Assembly (NCBI RefSeq): GCF_963675165.1 | Contig: NC_087377.1 | Coordinates: 7,085,122-7,149,121, forward strand | Direction: 5' to 3' | From: Halichondria panicea | Lineage: Eukaryota > Porifera > Demospongiae > Suberitida > Halichondriidae | Length of the DNA stretch: 64,000 nucleotides | Shown here: piece by piece, positions 53,689 to 61,124 of the stretch | Numbering within the stretch: the stretch's first letter is position 1 | How the letters are laid out: each line of letters opens with the position of its first letter | Notes under the pieces: generated by a model | Seen by the model: only the letters and a program-made list of their open reading frames with translations | What the model was told of the DNA's origin: nothing | Databases searched by the model: none | Program-made: the position numbers and the translations under genes

Positions 53689-53789
53689 CAGATCAGAGCA
53701 TGAAGCTGTGTGGAAGATTTAATACTAGTCTAGTTTTATGATAGATCTTAGTTCTACATGCTAGATCTCTAGATAATCTAGCCATATCT

Positions 53790-53842
53790 TAGCCTCGATC
53801 CCAGGCCGCTCTTCCTCGAAGAGAGGCCTGGGATCGAGGCTA
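53790..53842. mobile_element. TAGCCTCG hairpin element
   Basis: TAGCCTCGATCCCAGGCC pairs with its inverse around CGCTCTTCCTCGAAGAG. No matching 9-bp flanks. Confidence 0.6.
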
Positions 53843-53900
53843 AGATGAGGCCTTGTGAAAGAGGCTAGCCATATCTATGCATGGCAACAGCTACATACTA

Positions 53901-54080
53901 TATGGAGCGCCAAAGTGGACAAAAATATCGACGATTGATAGGCCAAGATCTTGAGTACATAATCGATCCAAAAGTGGGCGCGGTCATACATTTTTGATGA
54001 TCGAAAAATATCAACAATGGATAGGCCAAGATCGTTAGTACATAATCGATCCAAAAGTGGGCCGCCCATACATTTTTGAT
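53901..54080. repeat. Left terminal inverted repeat with two ~88-bp units
   Basis: Each unit contains GATAGGCCAAGATC, a TAATCGATCCAAAAGTGGG stretch and CATACATTTTTGAT. It is the inverse of 60660-60925. Confidence 0.8.
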
Positions 54081-54200
54081 AGTTTGATAATGCCGCGCCA
54101 ATTGATATTCGATCTACATGCAACCTGTGTGATGATTTAGTCTATTATCGACCTCTCAATCCTGAATCGTAGACATTGTGTTTGATATTCAAGAAGGTGT

Positions 54201-54247
54201 TAGCCTCGAGACCACGTCTTATTTCAATCGGCGTGGTCTCGAGGCTA
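54201..54247. mobile_element. 47-bp TAGCCTCG hairpin inside the large transposon
   Basis: TAGCCTCGAGACCACG ... CGTGGTCTCGAGGCTA. Flanks are AGAAGGTGT (54192-54200) and AGAACGTGT (54248-54256), 8 of 9 identical. Confidence 0.6.
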
Positions 54248-54263
54248 AGAACGTGTCAGCCTA

Positions 54264-55365
54264 GCCTCGATTCAAGGCCTAGTAAAATCAGCACTTTCTA
54301 CTGAAGACCACGCCCTTTCTATGAGACTATTATGTAAAGGGCGTGGTCTCTACTCTAGTTCTCACCTACAATAATAGCAGCTATTTTCTTTGCCAAGATC
54401 AAGAGCATGATAAGTGAGCCAAGCTGATTAATTCGATTGAGGGAGGGCATAGAGTATTAAGGTACTATAATTATTTGGTACTGTTTTATTAATCTTTAGT
54501 TTAGTAGGCTAACACAACCGTTTTCTACTTTGTTCGTTTGTTCTTGTAAGTATAAAAGAGTCATGGTGTAAGGTTGAGGATCTTCTCAAAGTCATAGGTA
54601 GCCTAACAGAATGACGTGTATGCGTATGTATTTATATTGTGGGGAAAGGACGTCCCTCCCCAAACTGGACGTGAGCTATTGTATGCATATACCTACCTAG
54701 AATATTAAACTTTGTAATGCTTTACAATGTAATGAAGGCTAATGAACTTGTCAATCTAATTCCCCCTCCCCTACCGGGGGTGGGGATTAGACCAATCACA
54801 TGATATAATACCCCTACCTTTGGGCATGTTATTTGGTTTAATCCCCCTAGTACAACATGGGGGTTATGTGGGGAATAGACCTATCACTACGTATAGCGAG
54901 AAGATAACAAATACAGAATCACTATATAAATATTGACAGCTATACTCTTATAAAGCAAAAAGGCAGAGATTGCTTAGGATTAATAAACTGCTCTCACTGT
55001 ACTCAGCATGTGTTGGAAGGATGAGTATGGCATGTGATCTTTTGACCCAATGCATGCATCAGGTGATCTGTCTAAGTCCCCTAGGTAGGGACAGAGGAGG
55101 TCCGACATGCGTGCACGAATCACTACAAGTTCAGTGCATTACAAGTTCAGTGCATTTGGCCTGGACATTATCACGTGACCGCAATGATATCAATGTACTG
55201 AACTTGTAGTGATTCGTGCATGTCAGACCTCCTCTGAGGTAGGGGAGCAACTTCAAGTCTAATCCCCAACTAATCCCCACCTGGGGGAGGTGGGGCATTA
55301 CTTTTACAAGTGCACAAATAAGTCTATAAAGACACACCCTCACTGTTAGGTACCATTTTCCTCAC
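54264..55365. other. 5' region of the integrase-like gene, no further gene
   Basis: It contains a TAGCCTCG half-hairpin at 54264, a second inverted repeat around GACCACGCCCTTT/AAAGGGCGTGGTC (54304-54352), CCCC-rich imperfect repeats (54755-54895) and a long palindrome at 55093-55236. An upstream exon of the integrase gene is possible but not visible. Confidence 0.4.
55093..55236. repeat. Long palindrome upstream of the integrase-like gene
   Basis: AGAGGAGGTCCGACATGCGT through CACTACAAGTTCAGT pairs with ACTGAACTTGTAGTGATTCG through GACCTCCTCT. The stem is about 45 bp, with a short internal direct repeat (ACAAGTTCAGTGCATT). Confidence 0.65.
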
Positions 55366-56891
55366 ATGGCGATTTCTTTCCTTAGAATGTCAGCTTCTGA
55401 GATGATTGACTTCTTGCTTGAGGCTGAAGATACTATTACGAGAACAAACATGATGATACTTGAAGGTGATTTAACTGTTGTCGAAGATGCACTTTGTACT
55501 GCTGAGATGGTCCTTGGAGATATTCTGAGTGCTGAAGATTTGTTACCTTTTGGAAGTGGAGAAATATTAGTTGAACATGTGAGAAACATAGTTGTGTGTA
55601 TTAATGAGGTGATTGATGATGAACACCGTTGTCACATTAGGGGACGACCACAAATACCAATTAGTGAAGAAAGCCTTATTTTGCTGCTAAAAGCTCATTT
55701 TTCAACTACAGCCATTGGGAAAATGTTAGGCGTTTCATCTCGTACAATAAGGAGAAGAATAGTTCAATACGGAATGCAAGATGAGATAACATTCTCAGGG
55801 TTGAGCGACTCTGAGCTTGATGATATTACAACAAATTTTATCAGGACGCATCCTAATTCTGGAGAACGATCACTAAGTGGCTTTTTGTGGAGTATAGGTA
55901 TTCGGATCCAGCGCGCAAGAGTCAGGGAAAGTCTGAAGAGAATTGATCCCATTGGTGTGGCTTCACGCTTCCGGCAAGTTCTCCACCGGCGAAAATATAA
56001 TGTATGCATGCCAAACAGCCTCTGGCACATAGACGGTTATCATAGGCTCATTAAATGGCGTATTGTCATACATGGAGGCATTGACGGCTACTCCCGACTC
56101 CCTGTATATATGAAAGCTTCCACAAACAACAGGGCAGAGACAGTTTTAGACAGTTTTTTGAGTGCAGTTCATGAGTATGGTCTACCCTCTAGAGTCCGAA
56201 GTGACAAGGGAGGAGAAAATGTGCTGGTGTCTCAGTTTATGCTTGATCATCCAGAACGTGGGCCCGGACGTAAAAGTTTTATTACAGGACGGAGTGTCCA
56301 CAATCAACGAATTGAGAGGTTGTGGAGGGACCTATTCACAGGATGCATATCACTCTACTACGAGGTGTTCTCCTCCTTACAAGAAGATGGATTGTTGGAC
56401 CCTCTGTGCAATACAGACCTGTTTTCCTTGCATTACATATATGTCCCCCGAATCAACAGCCATTTGGATGAATTTCGCCAATCGTATGCTCATCATCGTT
56501 TAAGAACTGAGAAGAATCAGACTCCATACCAGTTGTGGACGAAAGGATTGTTACAAGGGTCAGGTGATGCTGCTGCTATACAAGGTGTTGCAAGTGATAC
56601 ATTGGTAAGAGTACAATGTAATTGTTTTGGGTGTTAGAGTGTTAGTTATTAATGTTTTCTTCAGTGTTATCACAATGTGATTTATTGTAGGAATATTTTG
56701 GAATTGACTGGGAAGGTCCCGTCACTGTGTCTGATGATCTTGATCGTGTCACTATTCCTGAGACTAGGAATTGCATAAGTAGAGAGCAGCACATTGAGCT
56801 AGCACATGCTGTTGATCCTCTTGAAACCTGTGATGATCTTGGGATATCTTTGTATATTATCACTCGGGCTTATGTTGAAGCATGTCAGTGA
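55366..56891 (+). CDS. DDE integrase-like (rve core) protein, 479 aa
   Basis: Two exons, 55366-56604 and 56691-56891, joined at GATACATTG|GTAAG and TTATTGTAG|GAA. The frame is kept and the protein ends ITRAYVEACQ. Residues ~100-131 look like a helix-turn-helix (TAIGKMLGVSSRTIRRRI). The catalytic core follows: D223 (WHIDGYH), D280 (VRSDKGGEN) and E317 (NQRIERLWRD), with GGIDGYSR and NQTPYQLW motifs. The family is the animal and fungal 'integrase core domain' proteins related to retroviral and IS3-type integrases. No chromodomain, RT or protease is nearby, so it is not a retrotransposon. The first ATG was taken as start; ATG at 55387 or an upstream exon is possible because TTTCCTTAG precedes it. 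As the only recombinase inside matching TIRs it is the likely transposase. Confidence 0.8.
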
Positions 56892-56892
56892 C

Positions 56893-57054
56893 TGTAATTA
56901 ATTTATATATAGCTAGTGTTTTAGTGTTTATATTTGTTTTGTCATGTGATGCTGAATAAATTAATTTTGGCTACATATTAATTAATTTATATATAGCTAG
57001 TGTTTTAGTGTTTATATTTGTTTTGTCATGTGATGTTGAATAAATTAATTTTGT
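56893..57054 (+). repeat. Duplicated 3' end with AATAAA signals
   Basis: AATTTATATATAGCTAGTGT through GAATAAATTAATTTTG is present twice in tandem (about 56898-56970 and 56983-57054), directly after the integrase-like stop. Each copy carries an AATAAA that could serve as polyadenylation signal. Confidence 0.6.
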
Positions 57055-57229
57055 TAACTTGTTATTAGAATCAATCATATAAGGTATATACCATATATTT
57101 GACGAAAGTGATGAGGCACAAAAGTGATTACATATGTGATGCCAAAATTAAACTGTCATGGTAGTAATGAATGTGAATCGAAAAAACACTGATAGCTGAT
57201 TATATCTGAAAAATACACGAATGTTAGTG

Positions 57230-60200
57230 TTAGCACATTCCAAAACCTCCATGGTTTAGTATTCCATACTCCATGTTTTCTTTAAACCGGAGTTCATCAT
57301 CATGAAACTTGGTTGGCAATGTTAATTGCAATGCACATGTTGAGGCCAAGGGATAGTTTGAAGTGGAGCTGAAGTGAATACTCACAGGGTTTCGACTATC
57401 AAAGCCCAAAACAGGTGGGTAGTCACTGCCAGTGAAGAAGTTTAGAACCTGACCTAGGCTCAACCCTGACTCGCTGCCTCCATCTGCATAAATCGGGGGG
57501 AAGCCGTTTAGTGTAGCATGATTTTTAATCTAATTACCTATTACCTTGTATGTTATGCAACATATCCAAAAAAAGCATATACGACGCTTTCTCTTTGACT
57601 AATTCAGAAGTTCCAGATTCTGAAAAATGCACGTCACCTATCAGAGACCTAATCATATCTGAACAAAATAAAATGGAGGTAACAAACAAATTAAGAGGGA
57701 TGCCAACCTACTTGCTGAAAGAGGTGGTTGCATTCCTTCAACAAAGAATGGTTTTAGAATCTCACTGTACTTGGACATGGCCTCCCTCATCCCTAGAATG
57801 TTGAGCCCAGCTCGCAACTGGTCCAGAACTGCTTTGTTTCGGTACACAACGAAGTGGAGCAATAGTGCTTTTACAAGCCCAGGTTTCTCTGACATGGTGA
57901 TGGAAGCAATGGGTTTGGTGTACCCAGCTTCAAGTGCAGTGTCGATATCACTCTGACAAGTCTGTCTAAGGCTTTCATTACATTCAGCTGCCTCGATCTT
58001 AAAAAGAAATCATGCAGTTATACATTATTTTTTAATAATGATAAGGTGTTCACCTGAGAGATATATTCCTTGACTTCGTAAGCCGGAACATCCTCCACAC
58101 TGACATTCACCGATTCTGCACTCACGCCACATAAGTACTCGTATATCGGAGGTGCAATGAATGGAACACCACTGCTGCCTTGGAGTAACCCCATAGCAAT
58201 CAAATTGCCAACATGTTCAAATTTCTTGTTCTAGAATAGCATAATTATAATGGAGGCAAATCTATACATAAGAATAGTGAACCTGCAGTGCAACAACATC
58301 ATGCCTTGGCACCAGGCGATCTCCAACCCCCTCAAACAAAGATGACTTCACTTGCTTAAACAGGAGACACCAAAACTCCCGTTTTAAACCACCCCCATCT
58401 TCACCTGCCTCCCCAAGAAACTCCACCTATATTACAGTAACACATGCAATCAATTATAGTGGCCAATGTAAAGTACCTTCTTACAATGATAGTGTGGTCG
58501 ATTGGAAAAGAACCACGCCTAACGGTGCGTAAAGCATCGTCGAGAACATTTTCCCGTCTCACAGTTACAGTCACTTCTTCACCTGTCACATACTTGGAGA
58601 GAGACTTCAGAAGGTCTGCTATTGTTGCAATTGATTCAGAACTGAATAGGGCATTCATTTAATCTCAACTACAACCAACTTGCGTAAATTACCTGTTGTT
58701 CTTAGAGAGAGAAATTGCACGGTCTATCATCTCTTGCTCGGTTTGTTCAACCTGTAGTAAAAGATATCATCAAAAATCTAGTAAATGTATACACTTCCCA
58801 CTTACATCATTGTCAGACTCAGAAGAAATTGAAATAAGGGGCTCTGATGTTGGCTTCTTCGGTGGGGGGGAAGTGTCATCACTATCCCAATGAAGTTCTC
58901 GTTTCAAGCTGTAAAGCAATTAATGACATTGTTAAATCATCATTAATTTTTGTAAAGTATCAACCTCAAAGGAGGCCTTCTTGGTGGAACAGGGTCTTCA
59001 AAGTCGTCTGAATCACTGTCTGATTCGAGTCCACGGCTCAGACTGTACAGTATAATTATACATAATTATAATTGATTAATGGCAAGTACCTTGACTTCTT
59101 CCACTTGCAAATGTTAACGTGAGCACGTAGGTCAACCACTGGCACTTTAATGTCACAGTGTAAACACTTCTCCTTTAGCTATTAGAGATAGATAATTATA
59201 CATGTAGCCAACTAGCTGAAGGTGCATGTTCTGTATTTTACCTCATTAGAGTTTCCTGCTATAGGATTGACATCTAAGCTTTTTTGAATGGGTCGGATGA
59301 ATACCCGGCCATTGCCAATGACGCTCTTTAGTACCTTGGGAGATGCTGCAATTACTGGTGAAATTAATTCCAGATCTTTAGTATTTGGAACACATCGAAG
59401 CAGCTCGAACCCTCCACACCCATTCAACTTGGAGAATGATGAGATTATGATTTCGTTGAAGTCCTTTGCAGAGCATTCTATGTCTGGGATTACTGTCTTT
59501 TTTTCTCCTAACCCAGCACTGACAAGCACATTTCGGTCATACACACTGCAGGGTACTTTTTTTGCTTCTGTACTGCTGAGACAGACTAACTTCACAGTCC
59601 AACTCTTGTGTTTCGTTGAACTCTTTCTCTCATATGGGGCAAAGTTTGCCTTCTGCTCGGATGTTCCCCCTTGGAGTCGTTCCCTGGAAGACGTTCCTTC
59701 TTGGAGTCGTTCCCTAACGGAACGAAGGGCTTCTACGGCTCTGCTGCATGACCCACTGGCACCATGCCTCACACCTAATGGATCATTATTAGTAAGATTG
59801 TGTATGCACTAATTATATAGCACCACTCTCAATTTATTCTACTCTTGATTATACCAAAATTTATTTGTCCAATGGCCATACCGTATAAGCTCTTTTTATG
59901 GCGCCACATTAAAATAATTACGCTGGTAAAGGTGGCTCTATTATGAGGTTGGAAAATTAGTTTCGAGTCTTTAGAAGAGCGCCTTCTAATTGGAGGTAAA
60001 AAAACAGCTTTGCAAATGGACTGTGCATGTGCATGGCACCTGCAGCAGTTTTCTTGTTCTTCCAACAGGCCTGTGCGTACGTTGCACACGTTAAAGAGGC
60101 ACTGTGTGGCCCAAATGTGGAAGGAAGAATTCTGTGATTGGCTTGCTCATTTTACCTCTATTTACCAATGCACCGTCAAAAAATAATTACTCACACGTGG

Positions 60201-60585
60201 TGGAGCTCCATTAGGAGTTTCAAAAATTACTTTGGAGGCTTCATGGCGCATCTTTAGAGGGGCGCTTTAAAAAATGCTTATATGGTATTAATGTGATACT
60301 TATTTTCACACAATCACACATCACTCTAGCTCAATAAAGATGTGCCTTATAATTAGCACCATGTTAGCACGTACGTACTTATAGCTTAGTATAGTACAGA
60401 GTACAAAAGATCTACAGAGAACTCCATAAACTCAAGCTAGCTAGCTGCACTTAACACTTACCATGCTGTGAAGGCGTTGACAATGAAGTGGATGTACTGG
60501 GTGTAGTGCTCTCAGCCGAGCTCTCAGCCGAGCTCTCAGCAATAGATGCGAGAAGCTTAATAGCCTGCTTGACCTTGTCCTCCAT
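57230..60585 (-). CDS. C2HC-finger, UIM and HECT-domain protein (G2E3-like ubiquitin ligase), 705 aa
   Basis: Twelve exons with consistent GT-AG sites and phases: 60462-60585, 59242-59774, 59090-59178, 58965-59042, 58806-58908, 58693-58751, 58485-58641, 58283-58426, 58054-58230, 57712-57997, 57545-57658, 57230-57483; 2118 nt, no internal stop. A Ser-rich N-terminus is followed by a domain ending in GRVFIRPIQKSLD, as in G2E3-like proteins. C224, C227, H239 and C243 form a C2HC finger. An acidic linker follows (SDSDSDDFED). TEQEMIDRAISLS (313-325) is a good ubiquitin-interacting motif. The HECT-like region begins about 330, with VEFLGEAGEDGGGLKREF at 382-399. The C-lobe holds LGFDSRNP and ASTCALQLTLP, where C671 is the candidate thioester cysteine; the chain ends NHGGFGMC. 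Expected role: ubiquitin transfer. Target unknown. It lies inside the transposon, convergent with the integrase-like gene. Confidence 0.85.
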
Positions 60586-60659
60586 ATTACTTGCTACACA
60601 ACACGTGGTCATTTGCTAACACGCATGCGCCAGTAATAATCACCCCAGCGCCACCGCAG

Positions 60660-60925
60660 CAAAAATGTATGACCGCGCCCACTTTTGGATCGATTATTAT
60701 GTACTAACGATCTTGGCCTATCCATCGTCGATATTTTTCGATCATCAAATATGTATGACCGCGCCCACTTTTGGATCGATTATGTACTAACGATCTTGGC
60801 CTATCCATTGTCGATATTTTTCGATCATCAAAAATGTATGACCGCGCCCACTTTTGGATCGATTTATGTACTCACGATCTTGGCCTATCAATTGTCGATA
60901 TTTTTGTCCACTTTGGCGCTCCATA
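60660..60925. repeat. Right terminal inverted repeat with three ~88-bp units
   Basis: AAAAATGTATGACCGCGCCC, then TTTTGGATCGATTATGTACT, then GATCTTGGCCTATC recur three times; the last unit runs to the terminus. The ORFs reading through it are repeat artefacts. Confidence 0.8.
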
Positions 60926-60999
60926 CATACTACACCCATATACCCCCTTCAGACCACTCACCTTTACTGTACGACAGTAGCCATGCAGCCAACAGAATA

Positions 61000-61098
61000 C
61001 CTCGACTCCACCCCTGCGGTCTGGAATCGAGGCTACATGTACAAGAGTGACTATAGCCTCGATTCGATTCGATCTCTTGCGGCCTGGAATCGAGGCTA
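61000..61098. mobile_element. Two adjacent TAGCCTCG-family hairpins
   Basis: A degenerate one at about 61000-61035 (CTCGACTCCA ... TGGAATCGAGGCTA) and a better one at 61054-61098 (TAGCCTCGATTCGATTCG ... CCTGGAATCGAGGCTA). AGTGACTA occurs on both sides of the second, but offset. Confidence 0.5.
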
Positions 61099-61124
61099 AC
61101 TAGTGACTAGATCTAATAGCTCTA

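Follow-up and report, generated by a model that had tools for sequence, protein, structure and literature searches.

Why should a transposon carry a gene for a ubiquitin ligase? The question is raised by a segment of the genome of the sponge Halichondria panicea, positions 53901-60925 of a 64,000-nucleotide stretch of contig NC_087377.1 (hereafter the window, meaning the whole stretch), in which a DDE transposase gene and a gene of the HECT ubiquitin-ligase type lie between inverted ends. The segment is a complete transposon. We argue that it is probably a recently active cut-and-paste element of the IS3EU/GingerRoot kind, whose HECT gene is of long standing in the lineage, inherited along with it and not the product of a one-off capture. 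The ligase may remove a host restriction factor, may control the transposase, or may have no role.

The two tips are exact inverted sequences, TATGGAGCGCC starting at 53901 and GGCGCTCCATA ending at 60925, each found once in the window. They close long terminal inverted repeats (TIRs) made of tandem units with a period of 83-84 nt, and the inverted arms are 93-99% complementary. CATACTA, a 7-bp target duplication, abuts the element on either side. A preliminary description made from the sequence had reported the exact tips, the tandem-unit TIRs and the 7-bp repeat. All are present as described; the length of the repeat, however, is not typical, because the target duplication is 6 bp long in 18 of 20 elements of this genome and 7 bp in only two (the window copy, L001, and L016). 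The ends and flanks, none of them stranded, are as follows.

53894..53900: target duplication, left copy, CATACTA (direct reading of the flank)
53901..60925: whole element, one of at least seven near-identical copies (genome search and end reading)
53901..54062: left TIR with tip TATGGAGCGCC, units of 83-nt period (repeat analysis)
60657..60925: right TIR with tip GGCGCTCCATA, units of 83-84-nt period (repeat analysis)
60926..60932: target duplication, right copy, CATACTA (direct reading of the flank)

The interior had been said to hold exactly two genes, convergent, and this holds for the open reading frames (ORFs) that were modelled. Every intron of the HECT gene is of the GT..AG type, intron 1 being 687 bp long, and protein-to-genome alignment gave the same models for both genes.

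55366..56604, plus strand: transposase exon 1, with a helix-turn-helix (HTH) at about residues 104-135 and the rva_4 core at residues 211-400, including D223, D280 and E317 (gene model, Pfam, alignment)
56691..56891, plus strand: transposase exon 2, including the stop (gene model)
57230..60585, minus strand: HECT gene, 12 exons, 705 residues (gene model)
60585-60462, 59774-59242, 59178-59090, 59042-58965, 58908-58806 and 58751-58693, minus strand: HECT exons 1-6 (gene model)
58641-58485, 58426-58283, 58230-58054, 57997-57712, 57658-57545 and 57483-57230, minus strand: HECT exons 7-12 (gene model)
59242..59772, minus strand: conserved N-terminal domain in exon 2, predicted beta-grasp (ubiquitin-like) fold (structure prediction)
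59090..59178, minus strand: exon 3 with the C2HC zinc finger C224-C227-H239-C243 (model and alignment)
58693..58751, minus strand: exon 6 with a UIM-like motif at about residues 313-327 (sequence pattern)
57230..58641, minus strand: HECT domain, exons 7-12, with the catalytic Cys671 (Pfam and alignment)

The transposase, 479 residues long, matches Pfam rva_4 with an E-value of 2e-83, and its HTH matches are weak. The three acids expected of a DDE integrase-like protein had been called beforehand and were recovered as D223, D280 and E317; 36 residues separate D280 from E317 (a DD36E core). Pfam gave no match to an HHCC-type zinc domain in this protein. The fold model is poor (predicted local distance difference test score, pLDDT, 69.9), and its best PDB matches are retroviral integrases at an E-value of 0.1. 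Public data hold at least 2724 relatives, among 7993 candidates scored; a scan of IMG/VR returned four pattern matches, none of them a relative.

The second protein scored 39.8 bits against the Pfam HECT profile PF00632 (cut-off 23.9, E 5.7e-10), and profile comparison gave E6AP as its best match (E 6e-21). C2HC, UIM and HECT features had been attributed to it. A six-row alignment shows no variation in the zinc finger (residues 224-243) or at Cys671, and the catalytic cysteine is kept in all ten aligned HECT models, including one only 20.7% identical to the window protein (family F1). The UIM fared less well: Pfam found no match in the window protein, and a UIM-like pattern stands at roughly the expected place in seven of 11 HECT models. 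For the exon-2 domain a beta-grasp is predicted, and the fold search gave no match at an E-value of 0.001 or below. Like E6AP, HUWE1, AREL1 and NEDD4, the protein has N- and C-lobes, a catalytic cysteine and a GFG end; unlike them it is transposon-encoded and has a predicted N-terminal ubiquitin-like domain, a C2HC finger and a UIM-like motif. We infer that it is probably an active E3 ubiquitin ligase. It is 22-36% identical, over part of its length, to Pfam-HECT proteins of other organisms. Its close relatives outside this genome, known as proteins only, are P0122, P0123 (Em0018g519a, which we take to be an Ephydatia muelleri-style identifier) and P0124. The NCBI model P0001 (467 residues) follows our HECT model as far as it reaches, save for nine extra residues at the N terminus.

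Copies at other sites show that the ligase gene travels with the element within this genome, as had been proposed. At least seven copies of the window family (L001-L007) lie on several contigs; the copy number is a lower bound, since scoring covered the best 40 of 608 candidates. Measured over the longest matching piece, their identity to the window copy is 98.7-99.9%, and the exons of both genes are present in all seven. Six retain both termini and a target duplication that differs at each site, in agreement with the earlier expectation of further copies with the same TIRs and different duplications: CATACTA (L001), GATACA (L002), GAATAA (L003), ATTACT (L004) and, around two composites of 13.5-14 kb, ATCCTT (L005) and AGTCAG (L006). 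L007 extends into an assembly gap (N).

The element is mobile with precise ends, and the second gene lies inside them. Indeed, paralogous empty sites, holding the duplication once and gapless across the insertion point, were found for L002 (C17:1406590-1406860, 98.5% identity, gapless over 260 bases), for L003 (C11:2184940-2185190, 94.8%, nine gap positions, none of them in the 55 bases round the junction) and for L021 of another family (C5:4714600-4714940, 80% with gaps overall, identical at the junction). In the comparison for L022 the match begins only at the duplication. No empty site for the window copy or L004 appeared among the best 40 of 386 candidates, which says little. Reading of the flanks showed, as a separate matter, that L021 is inserted in a Tc1/mariner-like transposase gene, with empty copies on C5 and C13, and that L022 adjoins retrotransposon sequence resembling a reverse transcriptase gene.

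It might be supposed that a host HECT gene has merely had a transposon jump into or beside it, and an NCBI gene model does exist (LOC135336110). Both genes, however, occur in seven of seven copies on several contigs and inside the TIRs of other families. The copies refute a chance neighbourhood, to which we give practically no credence; the HECT gene, for which a single-copy host locus had been named as the opposing outcome, is present in multiple copies and families.

How widely transposase and ligase are paired was assessed by scanning the genome with Pfam rva_4 and HECT and with the HECT proteins of the window, F1 (L009) and F5 (L021). The best 150 of 234 rva_4 candidates were scored and adjacent pieces merged by hand, giving 114 loci. 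HECT rows entered in the pairing count were 33 of 101 from the window search, 35 of 39 from F1 and 20 of 89 from F5, the omitted rows being mostly of already paired families. Fifty of the 75 strong loci (at least 150 bits) have a convergent downstream HECT match within 4 kb, six have another arrangement and 19 have none; the corresponding numbers for the 39 weaker loci are 11, 4 and 24. With only three protein queries these counts are a lower bound, and more pairs may be missed. When 75 loci were placed at random on 11 contigs, the mean was 0.17 and no more than 3 were reached in any of 1000 trials, against the 50 observed; these are not independent events, many of the loci belonging to a single family. 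The reading that a HECT gene is missing from most transposase loci, as Pfam alone had indicated (31 of 114 with one within 10 kb), was rejected once the protein queries gave 50 of 75 convergent within 4 kb.

Beyond the window family, seven TIR types enclose a transposase together with a HECT gene.

F1 (L009): TIR TATGGAAGGG
F2 (L010, L013-L016): TIR TATGGAACGCCAAAT
F3 (L018): TIR TATGGAACGCCGTTT
F4 (L019, L020): TIR TATGGCGGTA
F5 (L021, L022): TIR TATGGGGTGTTAT
L026: TIR TATGAGGGGTG, duplication GCCAGC
L027: TIR TATGGGGCGCC, duplication CATATA, which lies in TA-rich sequence and is the least sure of the duplications

The elements of the window family, of F1-F5 and of L027 have the termini TATGG..CCATA; in L026 and L029 these read TATGAGG.., which is still TA..TA. 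Ends were read at 29 loci of this genome (L001-L007, L009-L029 and L032). TA..TA TIRs with a flanking duplication were present at 20, and HECT sequence at 19 of these; the lone exception, L029, is a 1.8-kb deletion derivative that keeps part of the transposase only. Among the remaining nine, L007 meets its gap, L011 and L017 have both ends and no target duplication, L012 has one end, no end pair with a duplication was seen for L023, L024, L025 and L028, and L032 is likewise without an end pair.

The families are deeply diverged. F2-F5 are 30-41% identical to the window family in the HECT protein and 44-52% in the DDE protein. In comparisons between families the synonymous sites have reached saturation, whereas nonsynonymous divergence (dN) is 0.45-0.66 for the DDE protein and 0.61-0.89 for the HECT protein (nine pairs), which argues that both proteins have been maintained for long. 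The catalytic features of the HECT protein have been retained over that time.

Several observations weigh against the explanation given at the outset. At 19 of the 75 strong loci no HECT match lies within 4 kb. Two of these were read in sequence: L029, and L032 (C1:3142500-3149499), where no TIR was found in 7 kb and no HECT match clearly above shuffled scores; two others (C10:4062343 and C3:4576379) have a HECT match 6-8 kb off. Only L001 and L002 of the seven window-family copies have both genes open, free of stops and indels. The transposase is open in six of the seven, and HECT is damaged in five. The damage to HECT is a frame indel in L003, 14 gap positions within exon 2 in L004, a stop in L007, and in L005 and L006 both an exon-1 insertion and a 1-nt indel of exon 7. 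The exon-1 insertion is common to L005 and L006, which nevertheless differ in site and in 6-bp duplication, so an element with an interrupted HECT gene has moved, presumably using factors from intact copies. Together, the five damaged copies and the insertion-sharing copies at different sites indicate that HECT is dispensable in cis and speak against a strict need for it there. Moreover, the ratio of nonsynonymous to synonymous change (dN/dS) within families is 0.37-1.14 for HECT (seven pairs), which is not strongly purifying; for the DDE gene it is 0.53-1.41 (five pairs; two without synonymous change). Recent copies seem to be under weak constraint, and imperfect gene models may inflate these ratios. 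Finally, the two gene trees conflict locally: the HECT tree joins F3 with F4 and the DDE tree joins F4 with x26.

Such decay, near-neutral dN/dS and the transposition of a HECT-interrupted composite are what would be seen if the HECT gene, acquired a single time, were a neutral passenger that rides between the ends and is breaking down in most copies. We hold this to be distinctly unlikely: a neutral gene would be lost, whereas the catalytic cysteine, the zinc finger and the gene order persist across synonymously saturated families.

The trees also bear on a role in copy-number control, in which the ligase would turn over the element's own transposase and not host proteins. Distances in the DDE tree are correlated with those in the HECT tree (Mantel test over ten rows: r 0.51, p 0.008), in partial support of the congruent phylogenies that had been predicted; without three degraded rows the correlation stands at r 0.50 with p 0.056 (seven rows), so congruence is only partial. 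A correlation is expected of partners, and the genes are convergent neighbours in most pairs. Plain linkage, however, would produce the correlation too and can account for it alone, and no amplification of broken-HECT copies is visible among the seven or more copies. Autoregulation of this kind seems to us rather unlikely.

Some further observations concern the two genes and the element. The transposase of L032 is interrupted by about 2.2 kb; six similar rva_4 loci score about 202-209 bits, and all seven loci have one TAA each in the matched span. An F1-type HECT relative at C13:4996999-5001324 lacks any rva_4 locus closer than 8 kb and accounts for two of 11 such lone matches; it could be domesticated or a relic. 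Two dispersed repeats lie within the window element, at 59879-60288 and about 54739-55090, and pieces of them are about 75-92% identical elsewhere in the genome. Hairpin-forming or inverted repeats around TAGCCTCGATCCCAGGCC (53781-53851, 54200-54248 and 61016-61112) stand beyond each element end and inside its left part.

About 59879..60288, unstranded: dispersed repeat, unrelated, inside HECT intron 1 (genome search)

The exon-1 insertion of one composite copy is itself a transposon (L030:606-6950, on C2; 8-bp overlap, window 60566-60573). It has inverted ends of about 57 bp, a MULE (Mutator-like element) transposase domain (E 2e-9), an ORF with a ubiquitin-protease cysteine box (UCH, E 2e-6) and a PHD-like ORF just below cut-off. 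By its predicted domains, a deubiquitinase-like gene in a MULE is sitting inside a ligase-carrying element. The second composite (C1:8641118-8655131) has, by coordinates, a similar-sized insertion at the same place, the content being known for L005 only.

To which known transposons does the element belong? Ginger1 and other elements carry proteases of the ubiquitin and SUMO pathways (OTU, Ulp1); Ginger1-type elements thus share with ours a cargo from the ubiquitin system, proteases in their case and a ligase here. Ginger1 membership was rejected on the duplications: Ginger1 is described as duplicating 4 bp of its target and as having an HHCC domain (PMC10045372), whereas duplications here are 6-7 bp and no HHCC domain was seen. 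IS3EU elements have TA..TA termini, usually 6-bp duplications, no HHCC domain and a first D 100-300 residues in (Kojima and Bao, PMC10045372), and in rust fungi termini TAYGG..CCRTA (Kojima, PMC12730594). The window element shares the TA..TA ends, the mostly 6-bp duplication, the rve-like DDE core and a first D, D223, within that range, and so fits the published descriptions of the IS3EU/GingerRoot type, a placement by described features. Occasional 7-bp duplications set the elements of this genome apart from IS3EU as published.

A second gene opposite the transposase is likewise shared with fungal TET+ IS3EU families (PMC12730594); there it encodes an alpha-kinase, accompanied by TET/JBP dioxygenase genes, which are known transposon cargo, and in the window family a HECT-type ligase. 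The words HECT and ubiquitin are absent from PMC10045372 and PMC12730594. The literature searched, which left aside Repbase Reports and most subscription journals, yielded no account of an IS3EU element with HECT cargo and no paper naming both IS3EU and HECT, and a search there for a HECT or ubiquitin ligase with a DNA transposon gave nothing apparently relevant. As far as this search reaches, HECT cargo is undescribed.

We propose that the rve-like DDE transposase would act at the TATGG..CCATA ends and insert the element by staggered, mostly 6-bp cuts, as the duplications suggest, while the convergent second gene would supply a HECT-type E3 that bears a C2HC finger, a UIM-like motif and, by prediction, a ubiquitin-like fold. 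Such a ligase might, as first guessed, turn over proteins of the host or of the element. The role that we consider likeliest, at somewhat less than even odds, is that HECT ubiquitinates a protein that limits the element, be it a host silencing or repair factor or the transposase itself, and can act in trans on copies whose own HECT gene is broken. A wider and somewhat more doubtful proposal is that of a two-gene machine across the animal IS3EU lineage, in which HECT, equipped with ubiquitin-like and ubiquitin-binding parts, would long have co-evolved with the transposase and would edit host or element proteins so that the element can move.

A ligase retained next to the transposase in deeply diverged families would represent a new type of transposon helper. 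The copies are young, both reading frames are intact in two of them, and the genes offer a tractable pair for asking what a transposon must ubiquitinate in order to succeed. If the two-gene proposal is true, the ubiquitin system would be a battlefield between transposon and host, as the nested deubiquitinase-encoding MULE would underline.

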